A stretch of 64,000 bases of DNA, taken from NCBI RefSeq assembly GCF_900115715.1, contig NZ_FOXM01000003.1, forward strand, positions 1 to 64,000, written 5' to 3'. The DNA comes from Geopseudomonas sagittaria (GTDB taxonomy: Bacteria > Pseudomonadota > Gammaproteobacteria > Pseudomonadales > Pseudomonadaceae). Position numbers and translations under genes: made by a program. The notes under the pieces were generated by a model. It was not told the DNA's origin and made no database searches. It saw only the letters and a program-made list of their open reading frames with translations. Below are positions 8,295 to 60,601 of the stretch, piece after piece; positions within the stretch are counted from its first letter, which is position 1, and each line of letters begins with the position of its first letter.

Positions 8295-8338
8295 ATTTTT
8301 GTCGGCGTGACCGTGCGTCACATCGTCCGATGGGACTA
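8295..8338 (-). promoter_or_regulatory. Steroid-type promoter upstream of kstD (operator plus -10)
   Basis: The operator reads CATCGTCC-GATG-GGACTA on the plus strand (8321-8338). On the gene strand GGACGATG is followed after exactly 20 bases by AAAAAT (8295-8300) as the -10. The 17-base core is repeated exactly, in inverted orientation, at 8386-8402. Confidence 0.75.
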
Positions 8339-8385
8339 ATCAAAAAAACACCGCAACTTCGGCAAACAAGTACCTATCCATCGCT

Positions 8386-8429
8386 TAGTCCCATCGGACG
8401 ATGCCCGGCCTCCGGACTCTTCACATAGT
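8386..8429 (+). promoter_or_regulatory. Steroid-type promoter reading rightward, apparently into a small RNA
   Basis: Operator TAGTCC-CATC-GGACGATG at 8386-8403, then 20 bases, then CATAGT (8424-8429) as the -10. It points away from kstD, and no gene begins before the terminator at 8552-8586. Confidence 0.7.
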
Positions 8430-8435
8430 GGTCAC

Positions 8436-8586
8436 CAGCATCAGCGCCTTCGGGCAATCGCAGTCCCGGGCATCCGGCAGATCGCCCGGGCAATGGGCGA
8501 AACAATGTCTCCACGGCGCGACAGGTTGAGTGAATCCGCTTGAGCGTCTTTGCGCGGCATCCTCGAAAGGGGTGCCGCGCTTTTTT
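8436..8586 (+). ncRNA. Candidate small RNA of about 150 nt with an intrinsic terminator
   Basis: The 620-base gap between kstD and the flavin oxidoreductase holds a complete rightward transcription unit without a convincing ORF. A steroid-type promoter (-10 at 8424-8429) would start RNA near 8436. A strong terminator ends it: arms GCGCGGCATCC (8552-8562) and GGGTGCCGCGC (8570-8580) followed by six T. The only ORF inside is 16 codons from 8493, with no ribosome site. It could instead be a leader attenuated before the downstream gene at 8834, but that gene has its own promoter at 8674-8716. Confidence 0.5.
8552..8586 (+). terminator. Rho-independent terminator
   Basis: Eleven-base-pair stem (one T:G pair) with an 8-base loop, followed by TTTTTT at 8581-8586. 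It lies between divergent genes and terminates a rightward transcript that carries no recognisable gene. Confidence 0.85.
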
Positions 8587-8673
8587 ATCCAGCACATGCC
8601 AGCAGCACACTGCCGGCGGGCAGATTGGCTCCGGCGACACGCCCCGTGCCGCCAGAGGATATTGGTCGGAAAT

Positions 8674-8716
8674 TAGTCTTTTCGGACGAGGTCGCCACTG
8701 CGCACGCTGCTATGGT
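8674..8716 (+). promoter_or_regulatory. Steroid-type promoter of the flavin oxidoreductase gene
   Basis: Operator TAGTCT-TTTC-GGACGAGG (8674-8691), 19 bases, then TATGGT (8711-8716) as the -10. The gene starts 118 bases further on at 8834. Confidence 0.7.
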
Positions 8717-8833
8717 GGGCACACAGCCACCGGACTCCTGTGTGGGCCCGCTACCGGAAGCAATGGGAACACCATTACCCTGACCCGGGCCGCGCCAGGC
8801 TTTCCACCTGCAGTCGAATCGCTGGGACTCAGC

Positions 8834-10075
8834 ATGCATAACAACAAGATCCTGCCCGCCTCGCCGTCGCCGTTCAGCCCGCTGAAGATCGGCCCGCTGA
8901 CGCTGAAAAACCGTTTCATCAAGTCCGCCACCAACGAAGGCATGGCCAGGGGCGGCACGCCCTCGAAGCAGCTGGTGCGCTTTCACGAGGCGATGGCTGC
9001 CGGCGGCACCGCGCTGTCCACCGTCGCCTACTGCGCGGTGAGCCGCGACGGCCGCACCTTCCCCGACCAGATCACCCTCGATCGCGACGCCGTCCCCCAC
9101 CTGCGGGTACTGACCGATGCCGTGCATCGCCACGGCGGCGCGGCTTCGGCGCAGATCACCCATGGCGGCTGCTTCACCTTCCTCGAGGAGCTGTCCACCC
9201 GCCGGCCGCTGTCGGCCAGCGGCGGCTTCAACAAGGTCGGCATCATGAGCGGCCGCTTCCTCAAGCAGGCGATGAACGAAGCCGACATGCACCGCATCGC
9301 CGACGAGTTCGCCAACGCCGCCCTGCTCGCTCGCGAGGCCGGCTTCGACGCCGTGGAGATCCACATGGGCCACGGCTACCTGCTCAGCCAGTTCATCTCG
9401 CCGCTGTACAACCAGCGCCGCGACGACTGGGGCGGCAGCCTCGACCGGCGCCTGCGCTTCCCCTCCCTGGTGCTGCGCCGCGTGCTGGATGCGGTGGGCC
9501 GCGACCTGGCGGTGATCTGCAAGTACAGCGTCACCGAGGGGGCGAAAGGCGGCCACACCGCCGAGGACGGCGCCGCGGTGGCGCGCATCCTCGAGCGCGA
9601 AGGCGCCCATCTGCTGGTGCTGAGCGCGGGAATGAACGTCGAGTCCACCACCACCCTGTTCGGCTCGTCCTTCCCCAAGGAAAACCGCGTCAGCGTCAGC
9701 AACCCCATCGTGCGCGCGGCGATGACCATCCAGAGTTTCACCGAGCCCAAGGTGGAGTTCCGCGAGCTGTACCTGCTCGAGCATGCGCGCAAGGTACGCG
9801 CGGCAGTCAGCATGCCGCTGGCCTATCTGGGCGGCGTGAAGACCCCGGCCAACGTCCACCAGGCACTCGGCGAAGGCTTCGAGGCGGTGGCCCTGGGCCG
9901 CGGGCTGATCTTCGATCCCGAGTTCGTCAACAAGCTGGCCGCGGGTGGCGACGGCGCCTCCGGCTGCACTTCCTGCAACCGCTGCGTCGCCATGATGTAC
10001 ACCCCCGGCGGCACCAGCTGCGTGCTGGGTACCCCCGGCGATCCGCAGCTCAACGCCCAGCCCGCCCGCTCCTGA
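8834..10075 (+). CDS. NADH:flavin oxidoreductase, Old Yellow Enzyme family
   Basis: FMN-dependent ene-reductase of 413 residues. A TIM barrel begins near residue 14 (FSPLKIGPLTLKNRF). The substrate-binding histidine region is VEIHMGHGYLLSQFISP, with the usual YNQRRDDWGGS after it. A C-terminal cysteine cluster (CTSCNRC...C) resembles the iron-sulfur-linked OYE subgroup, but the second flavin domain of 2,4-dienoyl-CoA reductase is absent. The start at 8834 was chosen because the barrel begins immediately after it; upstream sequence is promoter. The codons for HNNK at the start form an AANAANAA motif. In this setting it probably reduces a conjugated steroid enone, which is inferred only. Confidence 0.85.
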   Translation: MHNNKILPASPSPFSPLKIGPLTLKNRFIKSATNEGMARGGTPSKQLVRFHEAMAAGGTALSTVAYCAVSRDGRTFPDQITLDRDAVPHLRVLTDAVHRHGGAASAQITHGGCFTFLEELSTRRPLSASGGFNKVGIMSGRFLKQAMNEADMHRIADEFANAALLAREAGFDAVEIHMGHGYLLSQFISPLYNQRRDDWGGSLDRRLRFPSLVLRRVLDAVGRDLAVICKYSVTEGAKGGHTAEDGAAVARILEREGAHLLVLSAGMNVESTTTLFGSSFPKENRVSVSNPIVRAAMTIQSFTEPKVEFRELYLLEHARKVRAAVSMPLAYLGGVKTPANVHQALGEGFEAVALGRGLIFDPEFVNKLAAGGDGASGCTSCNRCVAMMYTPGGTSCVLGTPGDPQLNAQPARS

Positions 10076-10081
10076 CCAACC

Positions 10082-10140
10082 TGTAGGGGCGAATTCATTC
10101 GCCCCAAAATACCCCGCCAAGGCGAGTGAACTCGCCCTAC
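10082..10140. repeat. REP-like palindromic element, copy 1 (diverged)
   Basis: The left arm (10082-10103) is identical to the arms of the copies at 33336 and 63002. The right arm (10119-10140) carries substitutions. It lies between two co-directional genes and may act as a transcript stabiliser or terminator. Confidence 0.75.
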
Positions 10141-10203
10141 GGACCGGGCTTGCCCTGCCTCCGGCCACGCCCCGAACAACAACGACCCAAGGAGATGCCC
10201 GAC

Positions 10204-11952
10204 GTGACCCAGCGCGATGAACCCGGTAGCCCCCACTGGTATTCCCCCGTTCGCCAGCCGGAAAGGGTGGCCGACGCCGCGGCCGTGCCGTGGGACGATG
10301 CCGCCGACTTCGTGGTGGTCGGCTACGGCGGCGCCGGCATCGCCGCGGCGCTGGAGGCCGCCGAGCACGGGCTGGAGGTCTTGGCGATGGATGCCTTCGA
10401 CGGCGGCGGTTCGACGGCGATGAACGGCGGCGTGGTGTACGCCGGCGGCGGCACCGCGATCCAGCGCGAAGCGGGCGTCGAGGACTCGGTGGAGGACATG
10501 TTCCGCTACCTCAAGCTGGAGACCCAGAGCGTGGTCAAGGACAGCACCCTGCGCCGCTTCTGCGAGCAGAGCCCGCAGATGATCGACTGGCTGAGTCGCC
10601 ACGGCGTGCGCTTCGACAGCACCCTGTATGCGGGCAAGACCTCCTATCCGCCGCCGGGCTATCACCTGTACCACTCCGACAGCTCGCTGTCGCCGCGCGC
10701 TGCGGCCGTCGCTCGGCCGGCGGCGCGCGGCCACAAGGTCTACTCGCCGCCCACCTCCGCCCCCATCGGCTTCGGCGTGCGCATGACCGATCCGCTGCGC
10801 GAGCGGGCCAGTCGGCTGGGCGTGCGCTTCATGGCGCAGACCGAGGTCCGCCAGCTGATCGTCGACCACGACGACAACGTGGTGGGGGTCAAGGTCCTGC
10901 AGATTCCGCCCGGCGCGGCGGCAGCGGAATTCAGCCGGCTGATGCAGCAGGCTGCGCGCTTCCAGTTGATGCTGCCGGCCAGCTTTCCCGGCTCCGGCCT
11001 CACCGGGGCCATCGCCCTGCGCTACTGGCGCAAGGCCGAAGCACTGAAGAGCACGCATGCCGTCGAGCGGCGCATCCGTGCCCGCCACGGCGTGTGCCTG
11101 AGCAGCGGCGGCTTCATCCAGAACCGTGCGATGGCCAACCATTACGCGCCGGGCTACGCCGACAGCATGCCGCTGGGCTCGCTGGGCGACAACGGCAGCG
11201 GCATCCGTCTCGGCCAGAGCGTCGGTGGCGCCGCCGACCGGCTCGGGCGGATCAGCAGCTGGCGCTTCCTCAACCCGCCCAAGGCCTTCGCCGAGGCCAT
11301 GCTGGTCAACGGCCGCGGCGAGCGCTACTGCGACGAGATGCTCTACGGCGCCGCCATCGGCCAGGTGATGGGCGACGAGCAGAACGGCGCCGGCCTGCTG
11401 ATCCTCGACCGTGCCCTGTACCGCAAGGCATGGCGCCAAGTGCGCAAGGACGACATGCTGCCGTTCCAGCGCCAGCCGGCGATCCTCGCCCTGCTGTTCG
11501 CCTCGCGCAAGGCGCGCACCCTCGCGGAGCTGGCGCGCAAGTGCGGCCTCGATCCCCAGGTGCTCGGCAAGACGGTCGACGACTACAACCTGGCAGCGGC
11601 CGGCTGGCAGGCCGACCACTTCGGCAAGGACCAGAAGGACATCCACGCCATCGCCGAGGGACCGTTCTACGCCATCGACGTATCGATCCGCAGCCGCCTG
11701 TTCCCCCTGTCGGCGATGACCGTCGGCGGCCTGCGCATCGACGAGGACAGCGGCCAGGTGCTGCGCGCCGACGATACGCCGATCGGCGGGCTGTACGCCG
11801 CCGGCCGCACCGCCATCGGCCTGCCATCGCACCTGTACATCTCCGGACTGTCCGCCGCCGACTGCATCTTCTCCGGCCGCCGCGCCGGCGCGCATGTCGC
11901 CGGCCAGCGGGCGCTGCAGCAGCCGATGCAGGCACAGGCCCAGCACGCCTGA
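10204..11952 (+). CDS. FAD-dependent ketosteroid dehydrogenase-like protein (second KstD-family member)
   Basis: Fumarate-reductase/KstD-superfamily flavoprotein of 582 residues. The FAD motif is VVGYGGAGIAAALEA (about 38-52), followed by GGSTAMNGG, and the C-terminal FAD motif is GLYAAGRTAIGLPSHLYISGLS. It lacks the GTKGG/STIGPAMTFG signature of the KstD at 6464. It may therefore act at another bond, for example delta-4 (Kst4D-like) or as a reductase. The GTG at 10204 is chosen as start because AAGGAG ends nine bases before it; the ATG at 10195 directly abuts that ribosome site. It may be read from the promoter of the flavin oxidoreductase gene. Confidence 0.82.
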   Translation: MTQRDEPGSPHWYSPVRQPERVADAAAVPWDDAADFVVVGYGGAGIAAALEAAEHGLEVLAMDAFDGGGSTAMNGGVVYAGGGTAIQREAGVEDSVEDMFRYLKLETQSVVKDSTLRRFCEQSPQMIDWLSRHGVRFDSTLYAGKTSYPPPGYHLYHSDSSLSPRAAAVARPAARGHKVYSPPTSAPIGFGVRMTDPLRERASRLGVRFMAQTEVRQLIVDHDDNVVGVKVLQIPPGAAAAEFSRLMQQAARFQLMLPASFPGSGLTGAIALRYWRKAEALKSTHAVERRIRARHGVCLSSGGFIQNRAMANHYAPGYADSMPLGSLGDNGSGIRLGQSVGGAADRLGRISSWRFLNPPKAFAEAMLVNGRGERYCDEMLYGAAIGQVMGDEQNGAGLLILDRALYRKAWRQVRKDDMLPFQRQPAILALLFASRKARTLAELARKCGLDPQVLGKTVDDYNLAAAGWQADHFGKDQKDIHAIAEGPFYAIDVSIRSRLFPLSAMTVGGLRIDEDSGQVLRADDTPIGGLYAAGRTAIGLPSHLYISGLSAADCIFSGRRAGAHVAGQRALQQPMQAQAQHA

Positions 11953-12985: not shown

Positions 12986-13045
12986 TATCGTCCGACAGGA
13001 CTAGCCGGGACCGGTCATGTCCGCCCGCCGACAACTCCCTAGATT
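12986..13045 (+). promoter_or_regulatory. Steroid-type operator and -10 upstream of the Baeyer-Villiger gene
   Basis: TATCGTCC-GACA-GGACTAG at 12986-13004, in inverted orientation relative to the other sites. No -10 stands at the usual distance; TAGATT at 13040-13045 lies about 35 bases past the operator. This would suit activation from a more upstream position, or repression. Confidence 0.5.
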
Positions 13046-13074: not shown

Positions 13075-14544
13075 ATGAACAACGCAACGGCAAGACCCGA
13101 TCTGCGGGTGGTGGTGATGGGCGCCGGCATGGCCGGCATTCTGAGCGGCATCAAGCTGCGCGAGGCGGGCTTCGCCGACGTGACCATCTACGAGAAGGCC
13201 TCGCGCATCGGCGGCACCTGGCGCGAGAACACCTACCCCGGCCTGACCTGCGACGTGCCCTCGCACGCCTACACCTACTCCTTCGAACCCAACCCCGACT
13301 GGAGCCGCTTCCTGCCGCCGGGCGCGGAAATCCAGGAGTATTTCGAGCGCACGGTGAAGAAGTACCGGGTCGACGAGATGATCCGCTTCAACGAGGAAAT
13401 CGTCCGCTGCGAATTCGTCGACGGCCGCTGGCAGCTGGAGATGAAGAGCGGCCTCACCGACAGCGCGGACATCGTCATCGCCGCCACCGGCGTGCTGCAC
13501 CACCCCAGCACCCCGAACCTGCGCGGCCTGGACAGCTTCCGGGGCGACCTGCTGCACAGCGCGCGCTGGGATCACAGCATCCCGCTGGACGGTCGGCGCA
13601 TCGGCATCGTCGGCAACGGCTCCACCGGCGTGCAGATCGTCTCGGCGCTGGCCGCCCGCGCCGGCAAGCTCAAGCACTTCCAGCGCACCGCACAGTGGAT
13701 CTTCCCGGTCGAGAACCCGTACTACAGCGAGGAGCAGAAGGCCGCCTTCCGCGCCGACCGCGCCCTGCTCAAGCGCATGCAGAACGAGGAAACCTACCTG
13801 GCCAACGTCGAGCGCTTCACCAACGCGGTGCTCGACGCCAACTCGCCGGGCATCCTCGAGATCGAGGCCATCGCCCGCGACAACCTGGAGAAGAGCGTCA
13901 GCGATCCGGTGCTGCGCGAAAAGCTGCGCCCCACCTACCGCGCCGCCTGCAAGCGGCTGATCTACTCGCCCGACTACTATCAGGCGATCCAGCATCCGAA
14001 CGCCGAGCTGGTCACCGACGGCATCGAATGCATCGAGGCCGGCGGCGTGCGCACCCGCGACGGCCAGCTGCACGAGCTGGACGTGCTGGTGCTGGCCACC
14101 GGCTACAAGCCCGACCAGTTCATGCGCCCGATGCTGATCACCGGCCGCGACGGCCACACCCTGGAGCAAGCTTGGGCCAAGGGGCCGACCGCCTACATGG
14201 CGATCTCGATTCCCGAGTTCCCCAACCTCTTCATGCTCAACGGTCCCACCGGGCCGGTCGGCAACTTCTCGCTGATCGACATCGCCGAGCTACAGTGGGG
14301 CTACATCGCCCAACTGATCGAGCTGGTGCGCAGCGGCCAGTGCCAGGAGGTGAGCGCCGCACAGCCCGCGCTGGATGCCTACGACGTAGCCCGCAAGGAC
14401 GCCGCACGCAAGACGGTGTTCGGCTCCGGCTGCAACAGCTGGTACCTGGACGCCGACGGCATCCCCAACACCTGGCCGTGGTCGCAGCAGCGCTTCAAGG
14501 ATGAGATGGCGGGGCCGAAGCTGGAGGCTTTTGTGCTGCGTTGA
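13075..14544 (+). CDS. Flavin-containing monooxygenase of Baeyer-Villiger type
   Basis: NADPH- and FAD-dependent monooxygenase of 489 residues that inserts oxygen next to a ketone. The N-terminal FAD motif is GAGMAG (16-21). The Baeyer-Villiger fingerprint FRGDLLHSARWD (155-166) fits FxGxxxHxxxWD exactly. The NADPH motif GNGSTGV lies at 180-186. The ATG at 13075 is preceded by AAGGTG and by AACAACAA (13055-13062), a Crc/Hfq-type A-rich motif. The operator at 12986 links it to the steroid regulon. A steroid D-ring or side-chain ketone is the likely substrate, but BVMO specificity cannot be read from sequence. Confidence 0.9.
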   Translation: MNNATARPDLRVVVMGAGMAGILSGIKLREAGFADVTIYEKASRIGGTWRENTYPGLTCDVPSHAYTYSFEPNPDWSRFLPPGAEIQEYFERTVKKYRVDEMIRFNEEIVRCEFVDGRWQLEMKSGLTDSADIVIAATGVLHHPSTPNLRGLDSFRGDLLHSARWDHSIPLDGRRIGIVGNGSTGVQIVSALAARAGKLKHFQRTAQWIFPVENPYYSEEQKAAFRADRALLKRMQNEETYLANVERFTNAVLDANSPGILEIEAIARDNLEKSVSDPVLREKLRPTYRAACKRLIYSPDYYQAIQHPNAELVTDGIECIEAGGVRTRDGQLHELDVLVLATGYKPDQFMRPMLITGRDGHTLEQAWAKGPTAYMAISIPEFPNLFMLNGPTGPVGNFSLIDIAELQWGYIAQLIELVRSGQCQEVSAAQPALDAYDVARKDAARKTVFGSGCNSWYLDADGIPNTWPWSQQRFKDEMAGPKLEAFVLR

Positions 14545-17697: not shown

Positions 17698-19098
17698 TCA
17701 ACGACCCCAGCGAGCCGCCGCCTCGGCGCTGAACATGGCTGGCGTCCAGTTTTCCTTGGTTTCCAGGACTGGCGCGCCGGTCTCGTTGGCGATGTTGTCC
17801 ACCAGGTAGGCGCCGGAGATCAGGTCATGATGCGCGGCGATGCCCCAGTAGGGAGTCTGCGACTCGTAGGCCCACATCCAGTTGCCCAGCACGGTACGCC
17901 ACAGCTGGCCACGGCCGTCGTACTGGTCGGACAGCGCCGAGCCCCAGGTGTCCTCCTGGATGTAGAACACGCGCTTGGCGTATTGGTGGCGGAAGCCGGG
18001 CTTGAGGGTGGCCTCCAGTACCCAGACGCGCTGCAGCTCGAAGCGCATGGGGTCGGTGTTGACGTGGCCCTTGTGCTTGATCAGGTCGGCGATCTTCACG
18101 TCGGCCTGGTTGGTGCCGAAGGCGTTCCAGGGAATGTACATCTCGCGCTTGCCGACGATCTTCCAGTCATAACGCTCGGGCGAGCCGTTGAACATGTGGT
18201 GCTCGTCGACGGTGCGGAAACCACCGGCGCCCTGCGGCATGTCGAAGCCGAACGAGGGGGCCTGGCGCACGCGGCGGGTACCCGGGTTGTACAGGTAGAC
18301 ATCGCGCGGCAAAGTCTTGTAGTTGAAGGTTTCTCGCGTGGCGTAGACGGTGCCCTTGTCGCGCAGCGGCAGGTGGGTCTTCTGGATGGTCAGCGACTGG
18401 ATGCCGCCATATGGCGGAGTGAAGTCCGTGGTGTCGCGCATGGCCCCCGGTTCGGAACGCACGCCGAGGAACTTGTTCTCGGTCTTGCCCCAGGCCAGGT
18501 TGCCATCCGGGTAGACCACCACATCCTGGGTGGTCAGCTCGGTCTTGTGCGGCTGCGGGCCAGTGTTGTTGATGTTCCAGAGCAGCTCGAGGCCGGTTTT
18601 CGGAATCGGGAACGGGTGGGAGCCGGTCACCGCCTTCAGCCCGAGGCCGTCGTCGACCAGTTCGGCCGTGGTGGCGTTCTTCTTGAAGGCATCGCAGACC
18701 CAGTCGGGAAAGCGGAAGTCGCGGTGACTGGTATAGACCGGCATCTTGAAGGTGTCCGGGTACTTCTTGAACAGCGCCTTCAGCCCGTCGCTGAGCTTGT
18801 CGGCGTACTGATCCATGTTCTGCGCGGTGATGGTGAACAGCGGCTTTTCGCCGGCGTAGGGGTTTTCCCAGAACTTGCCGGTCCCCTCGTGCTTGATGTG
18901 GTCGGGTGCGCCCAGCCACTTGCCGGAAAACTCCGGAATGCTGCCGTCGGCGTTGCCGGCCTTCTCGGCGCCGGAGCAGGTCAGGTCCTTACCCAGGCGC
19001 GCGGCCTCTTCGGGGGATACCTTGGCCAAGGCGGACTGGCTGAAGGCGCAGAGGATGCCTGCACTCAGCAGGCTGGCTCGGAAAAGAGTCTTTTTCAT
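17698..19098 (-). CDS. DUF1329 (LolB-like) envelope protein
   Basis: A 466-residue exported protein with a signal peptide of about 25 residues (cleavage after SQSALA). The rest is a DUF1329 domain, thought to resemble the LolB/LolA lipid-binding fold. No transmembrane helix and no lipobox. It directly follows the DUF1302 gene (17-base gap), the common pairing of these families, and the terminator lies just downstream. The pair probably handles a hydrophobic ligand at the outer membrane. Together with the operator at 20856 a steroid ligand is the best guess. Biochemical function is not established. Confidence 0.85.
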   Translation of the reverse strand: MKKTLFRASLLSAGILCAFSQSALAKVSPEEAARLGKDLTCSGAEKAGNADGSIPEFSGKWLGAPDHIKHEGTGKFWENPYAGEKPLFTITAQNMDQYADKLSDGLKALFKKYPDTFKMPVYTSHRDFRFPDWVCDAFKKNATTAELVDDGLGLKAVTGSHPFPIPKTGLELLWNINNTGPQPHKTELTTQDVVVYPDGNLAWGKTENKFLGVRSEPGAMRDTTDFTPPYGGIQSLTIQKTHLPLRDKGTVYATRETFNYKTLPRDVYLYNPGTRRVRQAPSFGFDMPQGAGGFRTVDEHHMFNGSPERYDWKIVGKREMYIPWNAFGTNQADVKIADLIKHKGHVNTDPMRFELQRVWVLEATLKPGFRHQYAKRVFYIQEDTWGSALSDQYDGRGQLWRTVLGNWMWAYESQTPYWGIAAHHDLISGAYLVDNIANETGAPVLETKENWTPAMFSAEAAARWGR

Positions 19099-19115
19099 CG
19101 CTGTCTCTCCTGCTC

Positions 19116-20693: not shown

Positions 20694-21010
20694 CAGTTCA
20701 GCTCCTCTTGGAGGACCTTGGTTATTGTTTTCCTGATACGCCCTTGAATCTCGGCAGACTCGCCATTTGCAAGGCGCACACTAGTTGGCTCCTGTCTCGA
20801 CAACCGCACGCTGATCGCCGAGTGATTTCATGATTACCTGCCCGAAAGTCGCTCACATACTTGGTTCGGACTAGGCGGATCGGCGTCTTTCTGGCTATCG
20901 GGGAACACTTTTCGCAGGCACGAAAGTCCCCCTGCGCGTCGTACAGGCGCGCATTCGAAGTCACTGGAATTGCCGGGGGCTGACCTGTCGCTGACAGCCC
21001 CCGGAGTAGA
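20694..21010. other. Intergenic region between RND permease and DUF1302 gene
   Basis: These 317 bases hold the DUF1302 promoter and, 7 bases past the RND stop, a strong hairpin (CCGGGGGCTG at 20973-20982 with CAGCCCCCGG at 20995-21004). The hairpin has no T-tract and may terminate or protect the upstream transcript. No ORF of note. Confidence 0.6.
20830..20875 (-). promoter_or_regulatory. Steroid-type promoter of the DUF1302-DUF1329 operon
   Basis: On the gene strand CCTAGTCC-GAAC-CAAGTATG (20856-20875, one half well conserved) is followed after 20 bases by AATCAT (20830-20835). Confidence 0.6.
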
Positions 21011-23419: not shown

Positions 23420-23436
23420 GAGAGAGTCCGCTCGTG

Positions 23437-24560: not shown

Positions 24561-24606
24561 ACTGTGGCGGCGCGAAGGGGCACGCACATCGTCCGATCAG
24601 ACAAGG
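24561..24606 (-). promoter_or_regulatory. Steroid-type promoter of the YCF48-1/RND-1 operon
   Basis: On the gene strand CCTTGTCT-GATC-GGACGATG is followed after 20 bases by CACAGT (24561-24566). The gene starts 66 bases further on. Confidence 0.65.
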
Positions 24607-24635: not shown

Positions 24636-24732
24636 CTTTCGGCATGGGACCGGGGGAGGCTCTCGGCTGGTCTGTAGACCGTCGAGGCGACAGCCATGTG
24701 CCTGCGGCCGTGGAGAAACCGCTCGTCGCATC

Positions 24733-24776
24733 TAGTCCGTTCGGACTAGGACAAAAGTACACTCGCTTCCTATGGT
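24733..24776 (+). promoter_or_regulatory. Steroid-type promoter of the small secreted peptide gene
   Basis: Symmetrical operator CTAGTCC-GTTC-GGACTAG (24732-24749), then TATGGT at 24771-24776, 20 bases past the usual end of the site. It drives transcription rightward, away from the YCF48-1 gene. Confidence 0.7.
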
Positions 24777-26264: not shown

Positions 26265-26310
26265 ATCTTCACCGACAGACGCGGCGCGCTCATCATCCGC
26301 TTGGACTAGA
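26265..26310 (-). promoter_or_regulatory. Steroid-type promoter of kshA
   Basis: On the gene strand CTAGTCC-AAGC-GGATGATG (operator 26291-26309), 20 bases, then GAAGAT (26265-26270). kshA starts about 80 bases further on. Confidence 0.7.
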
Positions 26311-27283: not shown

Positions 27284-27340
27284 GCGGCTCAGTCTTGGCG
27301 CCGGACATGCCGCCCGGCATCGTCAATACGGACCAGAAAC

Positions 27341-28183: not shown

Positions 28184-28232
28184 ACTCTAGGGGCGGCGCG
28201 AAGCGGGACGAATCGTCCAAGCGGACGATTCG
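28184..28232 (-). promoter_or_regulatory. Steroid-type promoter of hsdA with a perfect-arm operator
   Basis: CGAATCGTCC (28209-28218) and GGACGATTCG (28223-28232) form perfect 10-bp arms around a 4-base centre. TAGAGT (28184-28189) follows 21 bases from the operator on the gene strand. The site also lies just past the regulator gene stop. Confidence 0.75.
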
Positions 28233-28245: not shown

Positions 28246-29439
28246 TCAGCCGCCGCGCAGCCGCTGGGTAGGGATCTCGGCCTGGCCCACCGCCATCACG
28301 CTGTTGAGCATGATGCGCACCAGTTCGGTCTGCCGGCGCACGCCGGTCTTGGAGAAGATCGCGCGCAGATGGGCGCGCGCCGTGTTGCGGCGGATGTTCA
28401 GCACCTCGGCGGCCTCCTCCAGCGACAGGCCGTTGGCCAGCTCGAGGCAGAGCGCCGTCTCCGCCGGCGTCAGGTTGAACAGCTGCTTGGTCACCGCGGT
28501 GCTGGCCAGCGACTTGCCGACGGCATCGCGGATGTACACCACCACCGCCGGCTGGCCCTTGCTTTCCGCCCATTCCAGCGAGGGCACCGACTCCACCACC
28601 ACCACCAGGCTGACCTGGCCGGAAGGCCGGGCGATCGACACCGCCTCGGCGATAGGCGGACTCTCCTTGCCCTGGCGGGCGAAGGCGCTGCGCACCAGGC
28701 GCTGCAGTTCGCGATTGTCGCTGGGGTAGGAGGCTTCCAGACGTCCGCCGACCAGCTTGAGACCGTCGGCGCCGGCGAGGATCTCCTGGGCGATGACGTT
28801 CTGCTGCAGGACGCGGCCGCTCTCGTCGAGCACGATGGTCGCCACCGACAGGCGGCCGATCGCCTGGGAATACAGAGCGCCCATCGACTGGCTGCGGTCC
28901 AGCTGGTTGTGCATGTTGAGGGCGCGACGCAGGTGCGGCAGGATCAGCTCGCACAGGGCGCGGTCGCGCACCGAGAACTTCGGCGCGGACTCCGGACGGG
29001 TGATGCGGAAGCGCAGCTTGCCGGAATCCGGGGTGGCGATGTCCACGCCCATCACGTGGTAGACGCCCTTCGGCCCGCACCAGTGCTGGTAGTAGGAGGA
29101 CTCGCGCCAGTCCTTCTCGCTCATCAGGTCGTCGACGGTGAACACCTTGTCGACCGGCTGGTTGATGAACGGGGTGCTGGAGTGCGGATAGGTCAGGTAG
29201 GTGACCTTGCCCTCGCCTTCGACGTTGCCGGCGACGATCATCAGGCCGGCATCCGACTGGTCGGGGACACGCAGGATCAGGGTCACGTAGTTGGCGACGA
29301 ACAGGTCGCGCAGCTGCTCCATGGGGATGTGCCACAGCCGGCTGTCCATCGCCGCGTCGTACAGGGCCGCGACCAGGCGATCGTATTCGGCCAGATCCAG
29401 GCCCGCCAGGGCATGGAGGTCTGCAGTTGTCTTTTCCAC
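28246..29439 (-). CDS. LuxR-family transcriptional activator, TeiR-like
   Basis: A 397-residue regulator with an N-terminal and central sensory region (about 1-320, including a PAS-like stretch beginning ATIVLDESGRVLQQN) and a C-terminal LuxR helix-turn-helix (about 330-392: LTPAETALCLELANGLSLEE, then RRNTARAHLRAIFSKTGV). Size and layout match TeiR, the testosterone-inducible activator of C. testosteroni, whose targets include hsdA. The GTG at 29439 is preceded by AGAGGTGAT; an in-frame ATG at 29496 lacks a ribosome site. An A-rich Crc-type motif (AATAACAA) lies in the leader near 29480. No copy of the operator precedes its own gene. Best candidate to bind the CTAGTCC-N4-GGACGATG sites. Confidence 0.85.
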   Translation of the reverse strand: MEKTTADLHALAGLDLAEYDRLVAALYDAAMDSRLWHIPMEQLRDLFVANYVTLILRVPDQSDAGLMIVAGNVEGEGKVTYLTYPHSSTPFINQPVDKVFTVDDLMSEKDWRESSYYQHWCGPKGVYHVMGVDIATPDSGKLRFRITRPESAPKFSVRDRALCELILPHLRRALNMHNQLDRSQSMGALYSQAIGRLSVATIVLDESGRVLQQNVIAQEILAGADGLKLVGGRLEASYPSDNRELQRLVRSAFARQGKESPPIAEAVSIARPSGQVSLVVVVESVPSLEWAESKGQPAVVVYIRDAVGKSLASTAVTKQLFNLTPAETALCLELANGLSLEEAAEVLNIRRNTARAHLRAIFSKTGVRRQTELVRIMLNSVMAVGQAEIPTQRLRGG

Positions 29440-32146: not shown

Positions 32147-32156
32147 CTGGTCACCC

Positions 32157-33237: not shown

Positions 33238-33284
33238 ATAGTCCGCAAGACAGAGCTGTGCCGGCATCGTCCATAAGGAGTACG
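33238..33284 (-). promoter_or_regulatory. Steroid-type promoter of the YCF48-2/RND-2 operon
   Basis: On the gene strand CTCC-TTAT-GGACGATG is followed after 21 bases by GACTAT (33238-33243). The left half is degenerate. Ten-base arms CTGTGCCGGC/GCCGGCACAG also enclose the operator. Confidence 0.5.
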
Positions 33285-35137: not shown

Positions 35138-35147
35138 GGCGCGCTCC

Positions 35148-35966: not shown

Positions 35967-36010
35967 GGTATACGGGGCGATCGGGGGCGTCACATCGTCA
36001 AAACGGACGG
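35967..36010 (-). promoter_or_regulatory. Steroid-type promoter of the ipdF operon
   Basis: On the gene strand CCGTCC-GTTT-TGACGATG is followed after exactly 20 bases by TATACC (35967-35972). ipdF starts 34 bases after the -10. Confidence 0.7.
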
Positions 36011-36041
36011 GGGATGGCGTTCGGCAGCAGGCCTGTCCAGG

Positions 36042-44788: not shown

Positions 44789-44859
44789 GCATGCTCTCCA
44801 GGCCAAAATGAACGACGCCCCGGCCACCAGGCCGAGGCGTCGCGACATTCACCGCTCCC

Positions 44860-47032: not shown

Positions 47033-47035
47033 GGG

Positions 47036-48094: not shown

Positions 48095-48104
48095 GATCCG
48101 CCCC

Positions 48105-49268: not shown

Positions 49269-49277
49269 GGTGCGTCC

Positions 49278-50030: not shown

Positions 50031-50062
50031 TGTTGTTGTCTCCTCAATCGGCAGGGGCAGGT

Positions 50063-51169: not shown

Positions 51170-52089
51170 GCGCTTTCCCCTTCGCTGGCCGCGGCCTGCT
51201 TGTTGGCCTTGGCCATGGCCTTGGCGTCGTAGCCGCCCAGCTTGTCGCCGGACAGCAGCTCGTTGTGCACGTGGGCGAAGTGGTGCCAGGCGAACACCGC
51301 GTCCATCGCGGTGCGCTTGCCGGCCAGATCCTCGACGTGGTTGATCGCCTGCTTGGTCAGCGCCAGACCCATGCGCGGCTGGGCGGCGACCTTCGCCGCC
51401 AGCGCATAGGTGGTCGCCTGCAGCTCGTCACGCGGCACCACGCGGTTGACCATGCCCACCTCGTAGGCGCGGCTGGCCGGCATGCGGTCGCCGCACATGA
51501 GAAATTCCTTGGCGATGCGCGGGTTCATCTCGTAGGGGTGGGCGAAGTACTCCACCCCCGGAATGCCCATGCGCACCACCGGGTCCTGGAAGAAGGCATC
51601 GTCGCTGGCGACGATCAGGTCGCAGACCCAGGCCAGCATCAGACCGCCGGCGATGCAGGCGCCGTGGATCATGGCGATGGTCGGCTTGGGCAGCTCGCGC
51701 CAGCGCCGGCACATGCCGAGGTAGACCTCCTGCTCGCGGGCGTACAGGTACTCGCCGCCCGGCTTGTTGGTGTGGTCCCACCACAGGTGGGCGCGCTCGA
51801 ACGGCTTGTTGATGTCGCGTCCCGGCGTGCCGATGTCGTGGCCGGCGGAGAAGTGCTTGCCGGCGCCGCACAGCACGATGACCTTGACCGCGTCGTCGTC
51901 CACCGCGCGGCGCAGGGCCGCGTCGAGGGCGTAGGTCATCTGCGAGTTCTGCGCGTTGTTGAACCCCGGACGGTTCAGGGTCAGGGTGGCGATGCCGTCG
52001 GCCACCGCATAGAGCACCGGCGTGTCGGTCTCGTAGACCGAGGCGTCGGCACGGGTGACGAATTCGCTGTCGCTGCTCGGGACGCTCAT
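51166..52089 (-). CDS. Enoyl-CoA hydratase/isomerase family protein
   Basis: A 307-residue crotonase with oxyanion-hole motifs GKHFSAGHDIGTPG and HGACIAGGLMLAWVCDLIVA, a mid-protein insert (KPFERAHLWWDHTNKPGGEY), and the acidic ligand region DDAFFQDPVVRMGIPGVEY. The ATG at 52089 has GAGGAG upstream. It lies between ipdB and ipdC with a 10-base gap and a 4-base overlap. It probably hydrates the enoyl-CoA made by one of the FadE pairs in ring C/D degradation. Confidence 0.85.
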   Translation of the reverse strand: MSVPSSDSEFVTRADASVYETDTPVLYAVADGIATLTLNRPGFNNAQNSQMTYALDAALRRAVDDDAVKVIVLCGAGKHFSAGHDIGTPGRDINKPFERAHLWWDHTNKPGGEYLYAREQEVYLGMCRRWRELPKPTIAMIHGACIAGGLMLAWVCDLIVASDDAFFQDPVVRMGIPGVEYFAHPYEMNPRIAKEFLMCGDRMPASRAYEVGMVNRVVPRDELQATTYALAAKVAAQPRMGLALTKQAINHVEDLAGKRTAMDAVFAWHHFAHVHNELLSGDKLGGYDAKAMAKANKQAAASEGESA

Positions 52090-52099
52090 GGCGGACTCC

Positions 52100-52912
52100 T
52101 CAGGCCTGGGCCACGGTGGCGGCACGGATGCCGGGCGGATTGCCCTTGAGGGCGGAGGCGCGCAGGTCGTGCGGGTCGAGGCGACGGATGATCGCCAGCT
52201 GCTCGGCGGTCGGATGCGCGGTCTCGCCCAGGCCGTCGGCCTTGAGCAGCGGGAAGCCGGTGGCTTCCTGCACTTCCTCGAAGCTCACCCCCGGGTGCAG
52301 CGAGCGCACGCGCACCGCGCGGTCCGGCCCCTCGAAGTCCATCACGCAGAGGTCGCTGACCACCCGGCGGATGTCCATCAGGTCGCGGCGCATGCCCTCG
52401 GCCCAGCGCTCGGGCTTGAAGCCGACGCCGGAAACCATGTCCACCTCGCCGGCGACGAACACCCGCTTGTTGTGGCTGGGCACGAAGAACGAGTTGATGT
52501 GGTTGATGCTGTTGCCCGGCAGGCCGCGCACGCCGAGCATGGCGATCTTCGGCTGGCGGTAGTCGCCGACCGCCGAAAGGTTGGTCTGGCCCCAGCGGTC
52601 GATCTGGGTCGGGCCGATCATCGCGTGGCGGCGGCCGCCCCACACGCACTCGAACACCCGCTCGAAGCTCATGCCGCCGGAGTACTTGGGCACGTAGTCG
52701 CCGCGCGGGCCGAGCGGGATCGGCTCCTCGACCAGGAACGCCTCGCTGTCGGTCATCAGCAGTTCCGGGCTATGAGTGAGCTTGGCCAGGCTGGCGCCCA
52801 GGCGCGGGATCACGCCCAGGCCCGAAGCCAGCACCTCGCCGTTGCCGCGCCAGGCTTCCGAGGCGGCGACGATCAGCAGTTCGGCCAGGGTGAAATCACA
52901 GGTATCGGTCAT
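52100..52912 (-). CDS. ipdB: IpdB, beta subunit of the ring C hydrolase
   Basis: A 270-residue protein of the CoA-transferase family I beta type. With IpdA it hydrolytically opens ring C of COCHEA-CoA instead of moving CoA. Visible marks: LAELLIVAASEAWRGNGEVL, GGRRHAMIGPTQIDRWGQTN and the conserved HPGVSFEEVQEATGF at about residues 225-240. Follows ipdA after 12 bases. Confidence 0.9.
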   Translation of the reverse strand: MTDTCDFTLAELLIVAASEAWRGNGEVLASGLGVIPRLGASLAKLTHSPELLMTDSEAFLVEEPIPLGPRGDYVPKYSGGMSFERVFECVWGGRRHAMIGPTQIDRWGQTNLSAVGDYRQPKIAMLGVRGLPGNSINHINSFFVPSHNKRVFVAGEVDMVSGVGFKPERWAEGMRRDLMDIRRVVSDLCVMDFEGPDRAVRVRSLHPGVSFEEVQEATGFPLLKADGLGETAHPTAEQLAIIRRLDPHDLRASALKGNPPGIRAATVAQA

Positions 52913-52924
52913 CGCGCATCCTCC

Positions 52925-53803
52925 TCAGAATACCGGCAGGGGCAGTTTGCCCAGGCGCTCGGCGCCGCCGTTCTTGTCCTGGTAAGCCAGCTCGCCGGCA
53001 GTCACGAACTCGTCGACGTAGGCCTGCCAGCCGCCCTCTTCCGCCGCACTGGCGACGTAGCGTTTGAAGTGGCTCATGTCCCAGCCGTAGTCGGACGGGC
53101 AGGAAGTCGGGTGGGCGCCGTAGGGTGCGTGCACCACGCCGGTCACCAGGTAGCGCTCGAAGGTGTTGAAGCGCGCCTGTGCGGCGGTCAGCTCGAAGCG
53201 CTCGTGCAGGCGCTCGCAGGACACGAAGCACTGCTGGGCGGCGCGGGCGAACAGATGGTCGAAGTACGGGTCCGGACCGGTCACCAGGGTGTTGCCCAGG
53301 CGGTCGGCGTCGTTGACGTGCAGGAAGGCCACATCGAGGTTGAGCGCCGGCATGGCCAGCAGCACCTCGCCGTCGGCGTAGGGCGACTGCACGGTCTTCA
53401 GCTCGGGGTTGTGGGTGAGCACGTCGGTGGCCAGGCCGCAGCGGGTCGGCAGGAACGGCAGGCGCATGCCGGCGGCGCGCAGGCCCCACTCGAACATGCC
53501 CTCGTCCAGTTCCATCAGCTCGGTGAGCTGGCCGGCCTCGCGGCACTTGCGGTACCACGGCTCCAGCGGGATGGCGTCGAGGGTGGCGAAGCCGAAGATC
53601 AGCTTCTTCACCTTGCCGGCCGCGCAGAGCATGCCGACCTCGGGGCCGCCGTAGGCGACCACGGTGAGGTCCTTGACGTCCGAGCGGAGGATCTCGCGGA
53701 CGATGGCCATCGGCTTGCGCCGCGGGCCCCAGCCGCCGAAGCCGACGGTCATGCCGTCGCGCAGTTGGGCGACCGCATCGGCCGCCGTCAGTTGCTTGTT
53801 CAT
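52925..53803 (-). CDS. ipdA: IpdA, alpha subunit of the ring C hydrolase
   Basis: A 292-residue CoA-transferase-fold subunit with the glycine-rich GFGGWGPRRKPM (21-32). Glu105 (DEGMFEW) sits at the number I recall as the key glutamate of rhodococcal/mycobacterial IpdA. Typical CoA transferases have a longer alpha subunit with an oxyanion loop; the pairing with ipdB, ipdC and echA20 makes the IpdAB assignment strong. Second gene of the operon, 11 bases after hsaC. Confidence 0.92.
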   Translation of the reverse strand: MNKQLTAADAVAQLRDGMTVGFGGWGPRRKPMAIVREILRSDVKDLTVVAYGGPEVGMLCAAGKVKKLIFGFATLDAIPLEPWYRKCREAGQLTELMELDEGMFEWGLRAAGMRLPFLPTRCGLATDVLTHNPELKTVQSPYADGEVLLAMPALNLDVAFLHVNDADRLGNTLVTGPDPYFDHLFARAAQQCFVSCERLHERFELTAAQARFNTFERYLVTGVVHAPYGAHPTSCPSDYGWDMSHFKRYVASAAEEGGWQAYVDEFVTAGELAYQDKNGGAERLGKLPLPVF

Positions 53804-53814
53804 CGCTGTACTCC

Positions 53815-54705
53815 TTATTCGCGGCCGGCGGAGAAGTCGTGGCCCCAGATGCTCACGCGGGTGAACTCGAAGGCGCTGTGTTCGGCCCAGTCGACTTGCA
53901 GGCCGCCGTAGCCGTATTCCAGATCGAAGCCCGAGGGGGTCTTCATGTAGAAACTGGTCATGCGGTCGTTGAGGTGCTGACCGAGGGTCGCCGACAGCGG
54001 CACGCCGTGGGCCTGCATGCGGTCGTGGGCGCGGCCCACCTCGGTCATCGAGTCGACCTCGACCATCACGTGCACGCAGCCGCTCGGCACCGGGTACTCG
54101 GCCAGCGCCAGGCTGTGGTGGCGCGCGTTGGCGCAGTGCAGGAAGTGGATGCGGGTCGCCGGGGCGCTCGGGTCCGGACGGAAGTTGAAGATGTCGGAGA
54201 CCTCGAAACCGAGCACCTCGGTGACGAAGGCCAGGGTGGCGTCGAAGTTCGGCGCCGGCAGCACGGTGTGGCCGAGGCCCATGTCGCCGGTGAGGAAGCG
54301 CGGCACGCCCTGCGGCGAGACGAACGGCAGGCAGTCGGAGCGATGACCCCAGCTCAATTCATGCCGGTTGCCCGCCGGATCGACGACGATGGCCAGTGCC
54401 TGCACGCCGCGCTGCTCGATCTCCTCGGCGCTGCCCGGCTGCCAGGCGATGCCCTTGGCCTCGAACACCGCGATGGCCTGGCGGAAGGCCTTCTCGCCGG
54501 CCAGCTCCCAGCCGGAAGCCAGGTAGCGCGGCGAGTCGCCCTCGACCACCAGCATGCGGAACGGCCGCTCGTCCATCTTCACGTACAGGCCGCCGCCCGG
54601 CGCGGGGCTGGTCGGCATGCCCAGCACGTCCTCGGCGTAGCACTGCCAGTCGCCGAGATTGCCGACCTGGGCAACGAAGTAACTCAGTCCACGGATGTCG
54701 ATCAT
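53815..54705 (-). CDS. hsaC: HsaC-like extradiol dioxygenase
   Basis: Type I extradiol dioxygenase of 296 residues that cleaves the catecholic A ring of 3,4-DHSA. Two VOC halves. Iron ligands are His146 (GLGHTVL), His212 (CVHVMVEV) and Glu263 (DLEYGYGG). His197, His244 and Tyr253 correspond to the acid-base residues of BphC-type enzymes. The ATG at 54705 has AGGAG upstream. First gene of the long leftward operon, under the promoter at 54745. A biphenyl-type substrate is excluded only by context. Confidence 0.9.
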   Translation of the reverse strand: MIDIRGLSYFVAQVGNLGDWQCYAEDVLGMPTSPAPGGGLYVKMDERPFRMLVVEGDSPRYLASGWELAGEKAFRQAIAVFEAKGIAWQPGSAEEIEQRGVQALAIVVDPAGNRHELSWGHRSDCLPFVSPQGVPRFLTGDMGLGHTVLPAPNFDATLAFVTEVLGFEVSDIFNFRPDPSAPATRIHFLHCANARHHSLALAEYPVPSGCVHVMVEVDSMTEVGRAHDRMQAHGVPLSATLGQHLNDRMTSFYMKTPSGFDLEYGYGGLQVDWAEHSAFEFTRVSIWGHDFSAGRE

Positions 54706-54744: not shown

Positions 54745-54790
54745 ATTGTGGGCAGGCCGCGCCAGCGCCTCATCGTCCGTTGAGACTAAG
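54745..54790 (-). promoter_or_regulatory. Steroid-type promoter of the hsaC-ipdAB operon
   Basis: On the gene strand CTTAGTCT-CAAC-GGACGATG is followed after exactly 20 bases by CACAAT (54745-54750); hsaC starts 40 bases on. The rest of the 363-base gap to the divergent channel gene (54791-55068) shows no further site or ORF. Confidence 0.72.
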
Positions 54791-58353: not shown

Positions 58354-58438
58354 GGTGAGTCACCTCTCGGGGGGTTAACGCTGGGAATCCAGCGCTTGGT
58401 TGTTTTTCACGACTGCCTGCGCGTTTGGACGGCCGGGC

Positions 58439-59305
58439 TCAGTGGCGGATCTGTCCGAACCGACCACTGCTGAAGTCGTCGATCGCCTGCACGATTTCCT
58501 CGTGCGTATTCATCACGAAGGGGCCATGTCCGACGATCGGCTCGTCGAGCGGCTTGCCGTTGAGCAGCAACACTGTGGCGTCCTCGCTCACCGCGAAGGC
58601 GAGCCGGCGGCCTTCGCGTTCCATCACGGCCAGCTCTGCGGCGAGCACCGTGTGGCTGTCGTCGATGCGGATGGTGCCGCGCAGTACGAAGAGCGCCGTG
58701 GTATGCCCCTCCGGCAGGTCGAACGCCAAGTGGTGGCCGGCCTTCAGGCGCAGGTCCCAGACGTTCATCGGCGTGAAGGTGCGCGCCGGACCGGCGGTGT
58801 CGGCGTGCTTGCCGGCGATGATGCGCGCCGTGCCGGCCTTGCCGGGCAATTCGACCTCGGGGATCTGCTCGGCGGTAATGCCCTGGTAGCCGGGGGGCGA
58901 CATCTTGTCCTTGGCCGGCAGGTTGACCCACAACTGGACCATCTCGAAGGCGCCGCCTTTCCGGGCGTACTCCGGGCTGTGGTATTCCTCGTGGATCAGG
59001 CCGGCGGCGGCCGTCATCCATTGCACGTCACCGGGGCCGATGGTGCCGCCGCCGCCCGACGAGTCGCGGTGCGAGACGCCCCCCTCGTACACGATGGTCA
59101 CGGTCTCGAAGCCGCGATGCGGGTGCTGAACGACGCCGAGCTTGCGCGAGGTCGGCGGGAAATCGGCCGGACCGGCATAGTCCATCAGCAGGAAGGGGGA
59201 CATTTCCTCGGCGATGTCCTGGTAGGAAAAGATGCTTTTCACCGGAAAGCCGTCGCCGACCCAGTGGCGGCCATTGCTGCGCTTGATGAATGCCAGTTTT
59301 TTCAT
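58439..59305 (-). CDS. Pirin family protein
   Basis: A 288-residue bicupin. The N-terminal cupin carries the pirin metal motif HPHRGFETVTIVYEG and a further HEEYHS; the C-terminal domain starts near FTPMNVWDLRLKAG. Some pirins are quercetin dioxygenases, others redox-dependent regulators. The ATG at 59305 with GGAGAG upstream gives the usual start (KLAFIKRS). First gene of its operon, divergent from the LysR gene by 95 bases. Confidence 0.9.
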   Translation of the reverse strand: MKKLAFIKRSNGRHWVGDGFPVKSIFSYQDIAEEMSPFLLMDYAGPADFPPTSRKLGVVQHPHRGFETVTIVYEGGVSHRDSSGGGGTIGPGDVQWMTAAAGLIHEEYHSPEYARKGGAFEMVQLWVNLPAKDKMSPPGYQGITAEQIPEVELPGKAGTARIIAGKHADTAGPARTFTPMNVWDLRLKAGHHLAFDLPEGHTTALFVLRGTIRIDDSHTVLAAELAVMEREGRRLAFAVSEDATVLLLNGKPLDEPIVGHGPFVMNTHEEIVQAIDDFSSGRFGQIRH

Positions 59306-59400
59306 GACTGCTCTCCGTGAGTGGATGAGCACAATGTAGAGGGCAGACGTTTATTCGACTATCTGGTTAAATTCCAAAACTCTTTTCAATGAGATGAACA

Positions 59401-60297
59401 ATGGATCTCAACGAAGCCGCCGTGTTCGTCAAGGTCGTGCAGGCCGGGGGCTTCAGCGCCGCTGCCCGGCTGCTGGGCTTGCCGGTCTCGACGGTCAGCA
59501 CGCGCGTGGCACGCCTGGAGCAACGGCTCGGCGTGACGCTATTGCAACGGACCACGCGGCGCCTGCATCTGACCGATGCCGGGGAACTGTATTTCCAGCA
59601 TGCCGCGACCGGGCTGGCGCACATGCTCGATGCGGAGGCGGCGGTGACCGAATCGGCCGGCGAGCCGAAAGGCTTGCTGCGCGTGACCGCCCCCTCGGAC
59701 CTCGGCGATCGCATCCTGGCCGAGATCGTCACGCGCATGCGCCGCCATTACCCCCTGGTCAGCATCGAGATGGTGCTGGTGGACCGCTATGTCGATCTCG
59801 TCGCCGAGGGCGTGGATGTTGCCATCCGCACGGGCGAGCTGAAGGATTCGACGCTGATCGCCAAGAGTGTCGGCACCGCCCACTGGGCCCTGTTCGCCAG
59901 CCCGACCTACCTCGCTGCGGCGCCGCCGCTGGATTCGCCACAGGAACTGCGCCGCCATTGCTGCCTGCAGTTCACCCCGCTGGGCAAGGACGCCTGGACG
60001 CTCGGCAACCGGGACGGCAGCGTCACCATTCCGCTGTCCAGGCAGGTGACGATCAACGATATCGGCGTGATCCGTTCGATGGCCCTGGCTGGCGAGGGCG
60101 TGGCCCTGCTACCGATCTATCTCTGCCGACAGGCCTGTAGCGAAGGCGCGCTGGTACAGGTGCTGCCGCAGTGGCATGCCAAGGCAGACCCGATCCATGT
60201 CGTCTATCCACGCCAGCGCTTCACGCCACCGAAGCTGCGCGCGTTCGTCGATCTGGCCGCCCAGGAGCTGCGCAAAGCGCTGGAGGAGCCGCGCTGA
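59401..60297 (+). CDS. LysR-family transcriptional regulator
   Basis: A 298-residue regulator: winged helix-turn-helix (residues 1-60: LNEAAVFVKVVQAGGFSAAA, then STVSTRVARLEQRLG) and a type 2 periplasmic-binding-like effector domain (about 90-295). The divergent position close to the pirin operon is the classic arrangement for LysR control of that operon. AT-rich sequence at 59340-59400 likely holds both promoters. Confidence 0.9.
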   Translation: MDLNEAAVFVKVVQAGGFSAAARLLGLPVSTVSTRVARLEQRLGVTLLQRTTRRLHLTDAGELYFQHAATGLAHMLDAEAAVTESAGEPKGLLRVTAPSDLGDRILAEIVTRMRRHYPLVSIEMVLVDRYVDLVAEGVDVAIRTGELKDSTLIAKSVGTAHWALFASPTYLAAAPPLDSPQELRRHCCLQFTPLGKDAWTLGNRDGSVTIPLSRQVTINDIGVIRSMALAGEGVALLPIYLCRQACSEGALVQVLPQWHAKADPIHVVYPRQRFTPPKLRAFVDLAAQELRKALEEPR

Positions 60298-60327
60298 GCG
60301 GCCCTGCGCAAGCCTGCTTTCAACAGA

Positions 60328-60480
60328 TCAAGCCAACGGCTTGCCGCTACTGCCCCAGACGGCCTGGCCGAGCAGCTCCTGCGGCGCACACACGACGATC
60401 CCGGCGAAATCCCGCCCTGGGGCGGGTGGCAGCGTGGTGTAGGCGAAGCGGCCGAGCACGTTTTTCACGGGGCTGTGCAT
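60328..60480 (-). pseudogene. Remnant of a zinc-type alcohol dehydrogenase/quinone oxidoreductase (MDR)
   Basis: A 50-codon open stretch on the minus strand encodes VKNVLGRFAYTTLPPAPGRD followed by FAGIVVCAPQELLGQAVWG, the N-terminal catalytic-domain signature of medium-chain dehydrogenases (PGRDFAG). A stop follows; the first part and the whole nucleotide-binding domain are missing. Non-functional leftover. Confidence 0.6.
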
Positions 60481-60557
60481 CAGCGGTCTCGGTCAATCCG
60501 CAACAGCCAAATATCGGGCTGGTCATTGGCTCCGTGCCCAGGGCGAAAACCTCTCCA

Positions 60558-60601
60558 TAGTCCGTTTCGGGGATTCCCGCCCTCTGCTCCCCTCGCACAC
60601 T
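60558..60601 (+). promoter_or_regulatory. Degenerate steroid-type promoter of the FadE30 pair
   Basis: TAGTCC-GTTT-CGGGGATT (60558-60575) is followed after exactly 20 bases by CACACT (60596-60601), close to the CACAAT and CACAGT of two other sites. The gene begins 33 bases later. Confidence 0.5.

Follow-up and report, generated by a model that had tools for sequence, protein, structure and literature searches.

Class II promoters of the LuxR/lux box kind carry a lux box, a 20-bp inverted repeat centred near -42.5 that overlaps the -35 region, and have no good -35 element. In the KstR/KstR2 system of actinobacteria, one conserved operator stands ahead of many steroid-regulon operons, and the regulators are TetR repressors (PMC6678751). 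A LuxR-type positive regulator, TeiR or TesR, is described in Comamonas testosteroni (PMC6895838). For P. stutzeri Chol1, a review mentions two TeiR-like genes, deletion of one of which delayed cholate degradation (cited there as unpublished), and regards regulation in bile-acid-degrading Proteobacteria as still largely unknown (PMC8399759). The present analysis concerns a 20-bp inverted repeat that recurs in a 64,000-nucleotide stretch of Geopseudomonas sagittaria (positions 1 to 64,000 of contig NZ_FOXM01000003.1, here C30; hereafter the window). This repeat is very probably the operator of a steroid-catabolism regulon, predicted from sequence to be bound by TesR/TeiR-type LuxR proteins that would activate transcription in the class II manner.

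The operator reads N(C/T)TAGTCC-N4-GGACGATG and is usually followed, 20-21 bp downstream, by a -10 hexamer of the form NANNNT. The arrangement is like that of lux box promoters in length, position and the lack of a good -35, whereas the operator sequence differs, the half-sites are orientation-specific and the candidate regulators have no Pfam autoinducer domain. Like the KstR/KstR2 operators, from which the motif differs, it stands ahead of many operons. In contrast to TesR/TeiR, the activator of the tes genes in C. testosteroni that was reported as a membrane kinase, several paralogues per genome here appear to share one operator.

A sequence-only reading of the window had proposed this promoter class, and every site it listed is present, to within 1-3 bases of its listed position. 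Matches to CTAGTCC-N4-GGACGATG with at most three mismatches number 16 in the window, some places being counted on both strands, against a shuffle mean of 1.8 (standard deviation 1.2, maximum 5; 100 shuffles). A count of inverted tetramers that used no prior motif, made in the intergenic DNA of the fetched contigs, found GTCC-N4-GGAC 13 times against 0.25 expected; a REP-like (repetitive extragenic palindrome) repeat and several other dyads were enriched in the same count. An early iterative matrix without intergenic restriction drifted into coding patterns and was discarded in favour of a symmetric matrix of 32 intergenic sites. Over the 203,963 bp made up of the window, the rest of its cluster on C30 and contig C36, of which 34,016 bp are intergenic, this matrix places all 31 sites that reach 16 bits, and 34 of the 36 that reach 14 bits, between genes, although it was trained on the very DNA scored. 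A matrix built from 13 window sites and applied outside the window, where 16.9% of the sequence is intergenic, gave intergenic shares of 17/17 (at least 16 bits), 22/23 (at least 14) and 22/25 (at least 12). An Rfam search of the window returned no match above the gathering scores.

The sites are concentrated in a steroid region, defined as C30:1-152,000 plus contig C36 and amounting to ~4% of the genome. Genes annotated there include KshA, KstD-like, extradiol dioxygenase, acyl-CoA dehydrogenase, thiolase, SDR (short-chain dehydrogenase/reductase), DUF1302/DUF1329 and MMPL. The expectation that a genome scan would show clustering by steroid genes held for close matches: 12 of the 13 places in 4.6 Mb (44 contigs) with at most one mismatch to WAGTCYNNNCGGACGATG lie in this region, as do 10 of 12 genome matches to TMGTCYNNNNRGACGATG. 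An Infernal matrix model, R1, likewise found 11 places at E <=10, all in the region (150 of 706 candidates scored). Positions 1-611 of the window and of C36 are the same sequence in inverse orientation, which makes C36 the probable left-hand neighbour of the window. In a relative (G085), five regulator matches and the region's pattern matches lie on one 213-kb contig. Because of these shared ends and this single contig, C30 and C36 probably form one steroid region of ~190 kb.

The distance between operator and -10 is close to constant. Gene starts from our own gene caller, lying 20-260 bp from the centre of a site of at least 11 bits, gave 47 site-gene rows; 12 were left out (five below 15 bits, seven with a closer site for that gene), and the sites at 8384 (+) and 24587 (-), more than 260 bp from a gene start, fall outside the 47. 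NANNNT occurs at a gap of 19-21 bp in 31 of the remaining 35 pairs of at least 15 bits (18 at gap 20, 12 at gap 21 and one at gap 19). The mean was 3.2 (standard deviation 1.7, maximum 11) over 2000 rounds of base-shuffled downstream sequence, and alternative four-base windows, apart from those covering gaps 20-21, held the hexamer in 0-6 of 35 pairs. With the hexamer set at -12 to -7, the operator centre falls at -42.5 or -43.5. The operator keeps a fixed phase to the -10, its centre near -42 being deduced from the -10 rather than from mapped starts. Over the 31 promoters, TTGACA is matched at four of six bases in two (2.3 expected), at three of six in 17 (8.9 expected) and at fewer in 12; a good -35 is absent, as is typical of class II promoters of LuxR-type activators.

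The two half-sites also differ from each other. On the gene-ward strand, counting outward from the centre, position seven carries A in 20 and C in 10 of the 31 distal halves, and G in 27 and T in four of the 31 proximal halves. In a symmetric site, a distal C would be matched with the proximal G. The same asymmetry is seen in distant relatives (distal A 63/92, proximal G 85/92), where sites from 48 of 76 loci scanned were collapsed to 107 distinct 20-mers since many loci are near-identical. Around these 107 sites, NANNNT stands 74 times at gap 20, against 5.6 (standard deviation 3.3) per gap outside 19-21; 99 of the sites have it 19-21 bp away in one orientation or both, against 15-24 in four control windows. 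Spacing and half-site orientation, in this genome and at the distant sites, thus support the earlier suggestion that the operator overlaps the -35, the place of a class II activator.

A mechanism of the following kind may be proposed. A dimeric LuxR regulator of the TesR/TeiR kind would bind CTAGTCC-N4-GGACGATG near -42.5. Acting as a class II (ambidextrous) activator, it would recruit RNA polymerase to promoters that lack a good -35 and have NANNNT as their -10. The proximal ATG of the operator would sit at the TTG position of a -35 with a 17-18 bp spacer, and such double use would explain why the proximal half is fixed as GGACGATG and the distal half relaxed to (C/T)TAGTC. Two or more operators, among them C30:121177 and C30:145672, are symmetric and flanked on either side by a correctly spaced NANNNT; divergent operons could be driven from them.

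The candidate binders are found in the region itself. A GerE search detected 18 LuxR-type helix-turn-helix (HTH) proteins in the genome, and the five weakest are all encoded in the steroid region. All five have GerE above its cut-off and are 384-399 amino acids long, which is the form of TesR/TeiR regulators, GerE HTH proteins of ~390 amino acids encoded in a steroid gene cluster. Four share the helix core RNT(A/V)R(A/S)HLR and are 34-40% identical in the compared pairs, while the fifth, encoded at C36:16285-17484, has 24% identity and a different helix. With Pfam at E <=0.001, no kinase domain was found in any of the five, nor an autoinducer domain of the sort that marks acyl-homoserine lactone quorum-sensing LuxR proteins; a PAS match was barely above cut-off in one.

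Operator and regulator also travel together between genomes. R1 is so short that its E-values stay weak (best 0.39), and co-occurrence was traced by pattern counts with a backwards control, in which a palindromic place can be counted twice. Within the family, 29 of 119 genomes have a TesR-like match at E <1e-80; these hold 6-14 pattern matches (mean 10.1), while the other 90 average 1.2 and 89 of them have 0-4; the exception, G103 (83% complete), has seven, along with KshA_C and a weaker regulator match. The backwards control gave at most two per genome. KshA_C is above cut-off in 36 of the 119, and 28 of these, at E <1e-60, count as strong; within the 110 genomes of 90% completeness or more and no more than 5% contamination, such a TesR-like match occurs in 27, and these are the same 27 that have KshA_C at E <1e-60. 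The pattern singles out genomes with strong KshA matches within one bacterial family.

Further afield, the best 79 loci among the matches listed come from Pseudomonas, Burkholderia, Cupriavidus, Paraburkholderia, Thauera, Aromatoleum, Endozoicomonas and others; they were picked by their luxR gene, and a large share come from close relatives in Burkholderia or Paraburkholderia. Across these loci, 218 sites of at least 15 bits occur in 1.55 Mb, against none in one first-order surrogate per locus. At least one such site lies within ~10 kb of luxR in 77 of the 79, and in 45 a site of at least 13 bits lies no more than 450 bp upstream of that gene. KshA_C, searched in the genomes of 29 of the 79 loci, was above cut-off in 28. 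In a 300-genome sample of the order of Cupriavidus, four genomes, the centre included, had a regulator match at E <=1e-60, and in a 17-genome count these had 5, 9, 6 and 3 pattern matches, seven other carriers 3-12 and six non-carriers 0-3, a trend like that in the family genomes, but not a clean one.

Conservation within the genus follows the same lines. Aligning 14 sites against five same-genus genomes, and keeping only BLAST alignments that span operator and -10, gave 50 site copies, in which identity amounts to 96% for the operator, 98-100% for GGACGATG, 95% for the -10 zone and 77% for the spacer.

Several observations weigh against the proposed reading. Published accounts present TeiR as a polar membrane kinase and assign a repressor role to a LuxR-type protein of C. 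testosteroni (PMC8399759, PMC6678751, PMC8700777), and tesR-like genes were reported to be limited to C. testosteroni strains (cited in PMC6895838). The relatives found here contradict that last report if they are true TesR relatives. The luxR gene in the window has no operator at its own head in the operon map. Allowing two mismatches to WAGTCYNNNCGGACGATG gives 65 places genome-wide against 80 in the backwards control, so that loose matches are uninformative. Some gene groups in the region are without a site: in the operon map, whose genes are annotated in part, none stands, for example, at the head of the window group 43106-45714, or of C30:106956-109461, 122966-124672, 124685-128901 and 129079-129981. 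The earlier statement that every identified steroid operon has a site was accordingly too strong.

The -10 itself specifies just two bases in NANNNT, and four of the 35 pairs lack it at gap 19-21. Near forms stand at gap 20 for 35993 (TATACC) and C36:13765 (TTAAAT), C36:29333 lacks it in its second orientation only, and 12986 lacks it altogether. Of the twelve hexamers proposed earlier at 19-21 bases, all do lie at gap 19 (site 8672), 20 or 21, and 11 fit NANNNT, the misfit being that of 35993. In the 17-genome count, two regulator carriers have only three pattern matches, not above one of the non-carriers. Finally, Pandoraea pneumonica (L087) has the regulator and the sites, but no KshA_C above cut-off. 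Its eight pattern matches, at seven places, fall in a 50-kb stretch and surround a thiolase/acyl-CoA dehydrogenase/CoA-ligase cluster; regulator and operator are therefore not strictly bound to KshA, and the family may serve another pathway in this species.

Overlap with the -35 region would also suit a repressor, of TetR or LuxR type, that blocks the -35 until a steroid intermediate releases it, as with KstR/KstR2. TetR repressors control the sterol regulons of actinobacteria (PMC6678751), and a steroid dehydrogenase gene of C. testosteroni is reported to be under a LuxR-type repressor (PMC8700777). In the present genome, a TetR-type gene lies at C30:85452. Repression, however, requires neither a fixed spacing of 20-21 bp nor a missing -35, the sites follow the LuxR family, and KstR homologues are described as not present in Proteobacteria (PMC8399759). 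That TetR-type gene is also the only one of ten genome TetR matches within the region, with none in the window or C36, and a TetR binder was set aside after this search. A repressor is accordingly improbable.

Co-occurrence with steroid genes alone cannot separate a binder from its passengers, and the window also encodes an AraC-type (41866-42861) and a LysR-type (59401-60297) regulator, so that one of these, or an unrecognised regulator of the region, could bind the motif while the LuxR family merely co-travels. That is quite improbable given the proximity of sites to luxR in 77 of the 79 listed loci, their position just upstream of luxR in 45, their persistence in Pandoraea without KshA above cut-off, and a 20-bp inverted repeat near -42.5, which is the lux box layout and unlike that of LysR or AraC. 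In view of the fixed distance to the -10, the motif might instead be a promoter element read by an alternative sigma factor; this is extremely improbable for an inverted repeat of 20 bp that can face either way and stops ~20 bp short of a sigma-70-like -10. The sequence-only reading left the activator unnamed; co-occurrence points to TesR/TeiR-type LuxR proteins as most likely the activator.

A wider proposal is offered tentatively, at somewhat less than an even chance: one operator code near TesR-type genes, from Pseudomonas to Burkholderia, Thauera and Endozoicomonas, may be read by several paralogues per cell that integrate different steroid intermediates at shared promoters, the operator being composite with its proximal half a remnant -35. 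If true, this would differ from the two-regulator KstR/KstR2 design, and TesR would be a DNA-binding, steroid-responsive activator, beyond a membrane kinase only. Among the literature matches listed, none gives a TesR/TeiR operator or promoter layout; one may still have been published. The motif strings occur, among those listed, as plain 8-mers only, in unrelated work. The analysis yields a precise predicted operator, a candidate activator family and -10 predictions for 31 site-gene pairs, and it makes the control of steroid breakdown in such bacteria directly testable. It also draws attention to regulon members that lack annotation, and it could be a source of parts for steroid biosensors.

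The features of the window are collected in the table below.

Table. Predicted operators, their -10 hexamers and the candidate regulator gene in window coordinates (gap in bp in brackets).
Feature	Position	Strand	Bits	Genes concerned	-10 hexamer
TesR/TeiR-like LuxR regulator, candidate activator; GerE HTH at C-terminus	28246..29439	-
Operator	8321..8340	-	24.4	4716-8212 group (KstD-like, SDR, EthD)	AAAAAT 8295-8300 (20)
Operator; unchanged in G085	8384..8403	+	25.3	towards 8834-11952	CATAGT 8424-8429 (20)
Second operator	8672..8691	+	21.8	before 8834-11952 (OYE-type reductase, FAD-binding protein)	TATGGT 8711-8716 (19)
Operator-like site	12986..13005	+	18.9	before FMO-type gene 13075-14544	none at gap 19-21
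Degenerate operator, distal half good	20856..20875	-	15.2	DUF1329/DUF1302 genes 17698-20693	AATCAT 20830-20835
Operator	24587..24606	-	21.4	YCF48-like/MMPL genes 21011-24294	CACAGT 24561-24566
Degenerate half-site, listed in the sequence-only reading	24616		11.8
Operator	24731..24750	+	24.2	small open reading frame 24842-25012	TATGGT 24771-24776
Operator	26291..26310	-	19.7	KshA gene 25143-26183	GAAGAT 26265-26270
Operator, overlooked in the sequence-only reading	27318..27337	-	18.2	SDR 26321-27169	AAGACT 27291-27296 (21)
Operator, perfect 20-bp palindrome	28211..28230	-	23.6	SDR 27385-28152	TAGAGT 28184-28189 (21)
Operator	33265..33284	-	19.4	YCF48-like/MMPL genes 29717-33131	GACTAT 33238-33243 (21)
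Operator	35993..36012	-	17.8	SDR/thiolase genes 33451-35933	TATACC (-10-like) 35967-35972 (20)
Operator	54771..54790	-	23.7	nine genes 45881-54705	CACAAT 54745-54750
Half-site operator	60556..60575	+	11.1	acyl-CoA dehydrogenase genes 60634-62969	CACACT 60596-60601 (20)

The earlier list of sites stood apart from the omission of 27318, and the matrix grades 20856, 24616 and 60556 as degenerate. The inverted site named at 12986 is present, but it has no -10 at gap 19-21 gene-ward, and none was seen in the other direction; it is altered in three of four aligned relatives. Site 20856 and its -10 are identical in all four aligned relatives, 26291 is retained in five with a single-base change in one, and 60556 has lost one base in the only relative aligned. 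For the group at 21011-24294, a longer frame extends to 24531. The first gene of the 45881-54705 operon is an extradiol dioxygenase of the HsaC/BphC type, under both NCBIfam cut-offs. Among the genes said to have no site, the sulfatase/porin and pirin groups and those at 1-4558, putatively the cus genes, indeed have none, and the channel gene at 55054 has only site 54771, 273 bp off and facing the other operon.

The open reading frame at 24842-25012 (+) encodes 56 amino acids with a hydrophobic N-terminus and a CxxC motif. A strong and conserved operator (24731) stands ahead of it together with a TATGGT hexamer, its start codon region is retained in four relatives, and its leader holds a mostly conserved inverted repeat like GACGGC-AA-GCCGTC.

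Beyond the window, an F420 cofactor biosynthesis operon (NpdG-like, CofE and a CofC/CofG/CofH fusion) lies at C30:75365-80693 (L031:11365-16693), with weak operators upstream at C30:75130 (15.6 bits) and 75168 (12.3 bits). On C36, a group with CysD and CysN/CysC sulfate-activation genes (L036:5340-10035) is separated from a divergent group by operators at C36:10118 and 10190. REP-like intergenic palindromes, GGGGCGAATTCATTCGCC, occur at window positions 10091, 27233, 27264, 33345, 63011 and 63042, often as inverted pairs ~30 bp apart.

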